DNA of 44,033 bases. It comes from Candidatus Cyanaurora vandensis. Its GTDB lineage: Bacteria; Cyanobacteriota; Cyanobacteriia; Gloeobacterales; Anthocerotibacteraceae. Shown here in pieces: positions 29,136-30,176 of this stretch (positions within the stretch are counted from its first letter, which is position 1; the number at the start of each line of letters is the position of its first letter). The notes under the pieces are model-generated. The model made no database searches, was not told the origin of the DNA, and worked only from the letters and a program-made list of their open reading frames with translations. Location of the stretch: positions 1-44,033 of the forward strand of contig NZ_JAAXLT010000053.1 in assembly GCF_013285555.1 (NCBI RefSeq), written 5' to 3'. A program made the translations under genes and the position numbers.

Positions 29136-29660
29136 ATGAACGACGCATTTACGAGAGTAGTCTCCAACGCTGACGTTAAAGGTTCCTACCTCTCCTCCGG
29201 GGACATGGGTGCCCTCGCTCAGTACGTCAAAGATGGCAACCGCCGTCTTGATGCCGTAAACACCATTACCGCCAACGCTAGCTGCATCGTCACTGACGCC
29301 GCTGCTGGGATCTTCTGCGAACAGCCTGACTTGATCCGTCCCGGTGGAAATGCTTACACCAACCGTCGCATGGCTGCTTGCATCCGCGACATGGAAATCA
29401 TCCTCCGTTACGTCACCTACGCGATGTTGGCGGGTGATGCCAGCGTCCTCGAAGACCGCTGTATCAATGGTCTGAAAGAAACTTATGTGGCCTTGGGCGT
29501 ACCTACCTCCTCGACCGCTCGTGGCGTACGGATCATGAAAGCCGCCGCGATTGCGTTCGTAACCAAGGACCCTGCGGTTATCCAAACTCCTGACAAGTGC
29601 GCCTCCTTGGCCAGCGAGTTGGGCACCTACTTCGACAAAGTGGCTGCTGCTGTTTCCTAA
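29136..29660 (+). CDS. cpeB: Phycobiliprotein beta subunit, phycoerythrin-like with phycocyanin-type loop
   Basis: The 174-residue globin-fold subunit starts at ATG 29136 (MNDAFTRVV), with GAGGA ten bases upstream; a TTG two codons earlier is ignored. By numbering, C50 and C61 are present ([13 protein letters not shown]), as in phycoerythrin beta. C82 (MAACIRD) and C155 (PDKCASL) are also present. Asn72, the usual methylation site, is present. The region before C155 lacks the longer insert of C-phycoerythrin (184 residues, C165) and has phycocyanin length. It probably carries three bilins: one doubly linked at C50/C61, one at C82 and one at C155. With the alpha subunit it forms the antenna rod pigment. 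Confidence 0.88.
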
Positions 29661-29684
29661 TCACCCAAAAGTTTGGAGAGCCTG

Positions 29685-30176
29685 ATGAAAACTGTAATTA
29701 CTGGTGTCATTGCTGGGGCTGATTCCCAAGCGCGTTTCCTCAGCGGTGGGGACCTGCAAGCGGTGCAAGGTCGTCTACAACGGGCCAGTGCTGGTCTGGA
29801 AGCGGCTTCCTTCATCACTTCTAACCACGAGAGCCTGACCAAAGAAGCCGTCACTGGCATGGCGAGCAAAATGCCCTACCTGACCCAACCCGGCGGTCTG
29901 TTCAACGGTGCCACCAACCAAGCCAAGTGCGCCCGTGACGTGGATTACTATCTGCGTTTCGTGAGCTACTGCCTAGTGTGCGGCGATACCGGCCCCTTGG
30001 ATGACTACGCGATCAGCGGCCTGCGCGAAATCAACCGCGCCTTCAGCCTGCCCGCGAGTGCCTACATTGACTGTCTGTCTTCCATCAAAGAGAAAGTGAA
30101 GTCCTCTTCTCTCTCTCCCCAAGCGAAGACCGAAGCTGCCCTTTACATGGATTACCTCGTCAACGCGATGAGCTAA
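29685..30176 (+). CDS. cpeA: Phycobiliprotein alpha subunit, single bilin site
   Basis: The 163-residue subunit starts at ATG 29685, with GGAG about six bases upstream. The N-terminus MKTVITGVIAGADSQARFLS and C82 in KCARDVDYYLR are phycoerythrin-alpha-like in numbering. The second phycoerythrin site, C139, is Lys here (KEKVKSSSLSPQ), so only one bilin is expected. Extra cysteines at 96, 99 and 130 are not at canonical sites. It is cotranscribed with the beta gene and followed by a strong hairpin that separates it from the linker genes. Confidence 0.87.
   Translation: MKTVITGVIAGADSQARFLSGGDLQAVQGRLQRASAGLEAASFITSNHESLTKEAVTGMASKMPYLTQPGGLFNGATNQAKCARDVDYYLRFVSYCLVCGDTGPLDDYAISGLREINRAFSLPASAYIDCLSSIKEKVKSSSLSPQAKTEAALYMDYLVNAMS

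Follow-up and report, generated by a model that had tools for sequence, protein, structure and literature searches.

Gene organisation at the locus

The window analysed here, a stretch of 44,033 nucleotides, is contig C21 of genome G000 (3,073,437 bases in 234 contigs, 93.8% complete). It carries an intact pair of phycobiliprotein genes, head to tail on the forward strand. The beta subunit, 174 amino acids long, runs from an ATG at 29136 to a stop at 29660, and the alpha subunit, with 163 amino acids, from an ATG at 29685 to a stop at 30176. Both chains match Pfam PF00502. Against the finer NCBIfam models, the beta chain reaches 251 bits with CpeB against 250 bits with CpcB, both under the curated cut-offs. 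It misses the CpcB equivalog cut-off (250 against 279 bits) as the alpha chain misses that of CpcA (164 against 269 bits), and both chains lie under the CpeA and CpeB cut-offs. The alpha chain finds its best match in CpcA of the Gloeobacterales (55-64% identity, as compared with 45-47% to CpeA). The pair fits neither the phycocyanin (PC) nor the phycoerythrin (PE) definition completely.

Downstream of the pair, on the same strand, a CpcD-type rod-capping linker (30238..30486; PF01383, NCBIfam CpcD) precedes a CpcE-type HEAT lyase subunit (30483..31268; NCBIfam CpcE, 3e-49, and tree), which likely serves alpha-82 together with the CpcF-type HEAT subunit encoded further on (35613..36152; NCBIfam CpcF, 4e-35). 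Five linker genes with pfam00427 domains accompany them, all in the forward direction: a rod linker with two domains (31272..32750), three single-domain rod linkers matched by PF00427 (32765..33493, 33524..34252 and 34267..34992), and a rod linker with three domains (36289..38850), the first and last being characterized by domain search and tree. The gene at 33524 resembles the linker trio of the Gloeobacter peb cluster, with which that at 34267 was also compared. A CpeS-type lyase (35044..35616, forward; PF09367, E 1e-62), about 40% identical to Gloeobacter CpeS/CpcS, is a candidate for beta-82. The order beta-alpha-cpcD-cpcE-linkers-cpcF is that of the cpc operon of G001, a genome of the same family and the nearest relative in our comparison (a single contig of 4,187,797 bases), an agreement that points to orthology with cpcBA. 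Homologues of CpeS, CpeZ and CpeF, the last two encoded upstream, come on top of this order, which the relatives share. In trees the CpcF-type protein and its G001 counterpart group together (98/81), on long branches.

The two- and three-domain linkers sit six genes apart, matching the description of the Aurora genes BNMIEFOB_00691 and _00697 (PMC10696076), and the genome is very probably that of Ca. Aurora vandensis. Their five domains form a branch of their own, several being 85-94% mutually identical, and this suggests recent duplication or concerted evolution. At the other end of the window, two large convergent genes (1648-4551 and 4800-6986) code for proteins rich in FG-GAP/VCBS-like repeats (DLDGDGDLDLV).

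Upstream, three genes lie on the reverse strand. The nearest, divergent from the beta gene, encodes a chaperone-like HEAT protein of 169 amino acids resembling CpeZ (28374..28883), 43-45% identical to the HEAT proteins adjoining Gloeobacter cpeBA, with which it forms a clade (100/98); its homologues adjoin cpeBA in crown cyanobacteria too. Next comes a CpeF-like HEAT protein of 305 amino acids (27467..28384), a candidate beta-50/61 lyase, 38-40% identical to HEAT proteins of about 300 residues from Gloeobacter cpe/peb clusters (clade 97/89); CpeF/MpeV-like homologues stand beside cpeBA in several crown genomes. These two genes, 0.25-1.7 kb upstream of beta, owe their putative names to homology and neighbourhood, and the cpc loci of G001 and G007, relatives with PC only, showed neither of them. 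The third gene codes for a CpcT/CpeT-type lyase (26854..27459; PF06206, E 3e-57), a candidate for beta-155. A gene of the CpeY type, the alpha-82 PEB lyase, was not recognised in the window, where CpcE/F-type genes are present. In Gloeobacter genomes the CpeF-like gene adjoins an orphan divergent phycobiliprotein-like protein, about 25% identical to the beta chain (L090 6655-7425, L091 10626-11210, L093 8714-9934).

Bilin sites and bilin supply

A first-pass annotation had seen in the beta chain the PE-only cysteines C50/C61, together with C155 and a loop of phycocyanin length. In alignments, beta C50, C61, C82 and C155 do coincide with the CpeB bilin cysteines, and C50 and C61 are missing in every CpcB examined. 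The loop has to be described differently: the stretch from M134 to C155 comprises 21 residues, whereas CpcB has 19, Gloeobacter CpeB has 24 and the longest CpeB have 31-33, so that it is intermediate between the two families. Among 150 beta-type chains, the set gathered before the CpeB search, the four cysteines occur together in 11; ten of these are phycoerythrins with a loop of at least 24 residues, and the only one with a loop below 24 is the beta chain described here. Its C50 and C61 are accompanied by a PE-type G58, while residue 86 is Met, as in phycocyanin. AlphaFold models of beta and alpha (mean pLDDT 85 and 86) display the expected helices, C50 and C61 sharing a single one (48-62). 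A Foldseek comparison gave no distinction between PC and PE, beta chains of both being matched about equally well with TM values of about 0.73-0.85. In one Gloeobacter genome, G002 (L021), CpeB has Asn in place of C61 and has also lost C109 and M79; judging from this sequence it would carry its 50/61 bilin by a single link or not at all. In the remaining three CpeB of Gloeobacter both cysteines are kept.

The alpha chain retains C82, the equivalent of CpcA C84, and has Lys at position 139, just as had been noted at first reading; in the model this position lies at the end of a helix (124-139). A fuller alignment places the column of CpeA C139 at V138 or in a gap, so that no Cys stands at the true equivalent. 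This cysteine, within the motif R-D/N-x-x-C-A/S-P-R-D, is present in all 27 CpeA chains adjoining a CpeB. The Gloeobacter chains are among them and, with their longer CpeB loop as well, do not share the features of the pair. The alpha chain has further cysteines at 96, 99 and 130. We considered C130 as a stand-in for C139 and judged it unlikely because, in the model, it lies mid-helix, nine residues before 139 and some 180 degrees round the helix. The alignments thus predict a doubly linked site at beta C50/C61 and single sites at beta C82, beta C155 and alpha C82.

Searches of the G000 assembly with PF00502 and with proteins recovered this pair, allophycocyanin-type chains and ApcE only, with no second rod pair, CpcBA or CpeBA. 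The pair is the only rod pigment found; it does not come in addition to PC and PE. At 94% completeness, the assembly could lack a separate cpcBA or cpeBA that the genome has. Gloeobacter genomes have both CpcBA and CpeBA, only CpeBA being found in G003, and the rod beta chains of the relatives G001, G006, G007 and G008 are exclusively of CpcB type. Tandem pebA and pebB genes are present at G000:C67:15386-16866 (L086 9386-10866), their products being 59-60% (PebA) and 62-65% (PebB) identical to the Gloeobacter homologues. A third reductase gene, pcyA, was not found anywhere in the G000 assembly, also with G001 PcyA as the query, though allophycocyanin needs PCB. This may reflect a gap in the MAG (the missing 6%) or a PcyA-independent source of PCB. 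If real, the absence would not be unprecedented, because the red alga Galdieria, which has PebA and PebB only, makes PCB by isomerisation of PEB (PMC13193486), and a PEB-to-PCB isomerase route would be paralleled here.

Given this genomic context, a doubly linked PEB-type bilin at beta 50/61 is likely. It may be argued that C50 and C61 are idle cysteines devoid of chromophore, in an otherwise standard phycocyanin with three bilins: the alpha chain has no C139, Met 86 of beta is a phycocyanin residue, and the CpeF-like assignment is drawn from 38-40% identity and a tree. What speaks against such an idle pair is the company kept by these cysteines: a PE-type G58, neighbouring genes of the CpeF- and CpeZ-like kinds, and pebA/pebB elsewhere in the genome. 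We see this reading as rather improbable. The four bilins per alpha-beta pair proposed by the first-pass annotation are backed by sequence and genome context together, with occupancy as a prediction. The best reading is that of a PEB/PUB-containing four-bilin rod pigment, neither phycocyanin nor phycoerythrin, with putatively filled sites. In such a scenario PebA and PebB would supply PEB, and the CpeF-like protein, helped by CpeZ, would ligate it at beta 50/61. Indeed, MpeV/CpeF ligates the doubly linked beta-50/61 bilin after CpeS action, helped by CpeZ (PMC7948978). The CpeS type would act at beta-82, the CpeT type at beta-155 and the CpcE/F types at alpha-82. The resulting rods would absorb green or blue-green light and hand energy to allophycocyanin.

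Origin of the pair

Our main tree, an LG+C20 PMSF analysis of 339 columns from 61 alpha-beta pairs, unites all CpcBA in one clade (100/99) and all CpeBA in a second (100/100). The pair falls outside both and branches off basally among the rod proteins, a position that is weakly supported (82/37). Taken separately, the beta chain is again basal (96/69), and the alpha chain is sister to CpcA (91/76). The pair still stays out of the Cpc clade when the allophycocyanin outgroup is left out (100/98) and when the columns around the 50/61 pocket are removed (100/98), and we reject the idea that its position is an artefact of either. AU tests do not separate a position sister to PC (p 0.42), sister to PE, that is, to all CpeBA (p 0.415), or basal. 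Nor do they reject nesting in Gloeobacterales CpcBA (p 0.125) or with the PC of G001/G008 (p 0.06), p for nesting among Gloeobacterales CpcBA covering 0.06-0.35 over all tests. Nesting with Gloeobacter CpeBA, by contrast, is rejected (p about 1e-96), and with it a canonical Gloeobacter PE. An ordinary five-bilin C-phycoerythrin of the Gloeobacterales, which the nearly equal CpeB and CpcB scores of the beta chain could have evoked, has in addition to contend with an alpha chain devoid of C139 and with both chains being under the CpeA and CpeB cut-offs; we regard it as extremely improbable.

Along both chains, diagnostic residues of the PC and PE types are intermingled and not in blocks, which leaves the idea that cpcB and cpeB recently recombined in blocks unsupported. 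The beta chain has 6 of the 18 states distinctive of CpeB, 2 of the 11 distinctive of CpcB and none of the 6 distinctive of Gloeobacterales CpcB; in the alpha chain, 3 of 22 PE-distinctive states are found, with 11 of 24 that are distinctive of CpcA. The pair is separated from the CpcBA of G001 by 1.04 substitutions per site, while the corresponding values for the two allophycocyanin pairs of these two genomes are 0.10 and 0.25, which means that the rod pair is either non-orthologous or has evolved four to ten times faster. The CpeF-, CpeZ- and CpcE-type proteins of the locus and its multi-domain linkers have long or deep branches too, and this fits either an old cluster or an acceleration affecting the whole locus.

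Two histories account for these data. In the first, the pair is a remodelled phycocyanin, the orthologue of Gloeobacterales cpcBA, which evolved fast together with its lyases and linkers and in which C50/C61 and further PE-like residues arose secondarily, by convergence or by gene conversion from a cpeBA now lost. It would still carry four bilins, and would differ in origin, not in function. The operon order shared with G001, the grouping of the CpcF-type protein and the CpcA-distinctive states of alpha all favour this course of events, as do the long branches of lyases and multi-domain linkers, which a locus-wide acceleration would give. The AU tests leave room for it (p 0.125-0.25 for Gloeobacterales Cpc nesting), and several of the PE-like states of beta lie at the 50/61 pocket or close to it. 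It has more trouble with the very small share of CpcB-distinctive states in beta as against the CpeB-distinctive ones, with a place outside the Cpc clade that persists without pocket columns or outgroup, with the interspersed mosaic, and with an allophycocyanin that is not fast in the same genome. All in all, we see remodelling as a serious contender, a little short of an even chance. In the second history the pair is a relict: a third rod phycobiliprotein family, older than the cyanobacterial crown, with a PC-like alpha, a PE-like beta and four bilins, surviving in a single thylakoid-less lineage that has no other rod pigment. We give this a comparable standing, tentatively, relict and remodelled origins being about equal in our view. 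The ancestral or transitional pigment suggested at first reading is thus compatible with trees that place the pair outside both clades, while the AU tests do not reject a PC remodelled within the Gloeobacterales, which synteny with cpc favours. On balance, it is probable that we are dealing with a four-bilin pair that is the only rod phycobiliprotein of a cyanobacterium of the Gloeobacterales. It may stem from near the divergence of PC and PE, a remodelled phycocyanin being about as likely.

The number of bilin sites increases from allophycocyanin (two) to PC (three) and PE (five), a series without living intermediates. With exactly four predicted sites and a place outside both families in the best trees, the pair may record an intermediate step of antenna evolution in a thylakoid-less cyanobacterium. 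Were it a third family, the beta-50/61 site would predate the gain of alpha-139, and the organism could run rods without separate PC and PE. The Ca. Aurora vandensis MAG was published as being without any phycoerythrin-associated gene (PMC7368068), and this view of an organism lacking PE-related genes is corrected here. The pair is also relevant to the proposal of a PE-PC-APC triad already present in the cyanobacterial ancestor, which took Anthocerotibacter to be without PE (PMC11976284).

Comparison with known systems

With C-phycocyanin the pair has in common an alpha chain nearest to CpcA, a single alpha bilin site, beta C82 and C155, and an operon order with cpcD, cpcE and cpcF. Unlike C-phycocyanin, it has C50/C61 in beta, hence more than three bilin-site cysteine positions, and a loop longer by two residues, and the best tree keeps it out of the CpcBA clade (100/99). 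C-phycoerythrin of the Gloeobacter type resembles it in beta C50/C61 with G58, in C82 and the equivalent of C165, in nearby CpeF-, CpeZ- and CpeS-type genes, and in the presence of pebA/pebB in the genome. The pair differs from it in having no alpha C139, a loop of 21 against at least 24 residues, and, in the best tree, a place outside the CpeBA clade (100/100). Phycoerythrocyanin and R-phycocyanin are rod pigments that carry bilins other than PCB on a PC scaffold; these, however, have three bilins and no beta C50/C61. Cryptophyte phycoerythrin carries four bilins in each alpha-beta unit, of which three are on beta (50/61, 82 and 158) and one is on alpha, and its beta chain is the second-best PDB match of the beta chain described here. 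Its alpha subunit is an unrelated short protein, whereas that of the pair has a globin fold and is CpcA-like.
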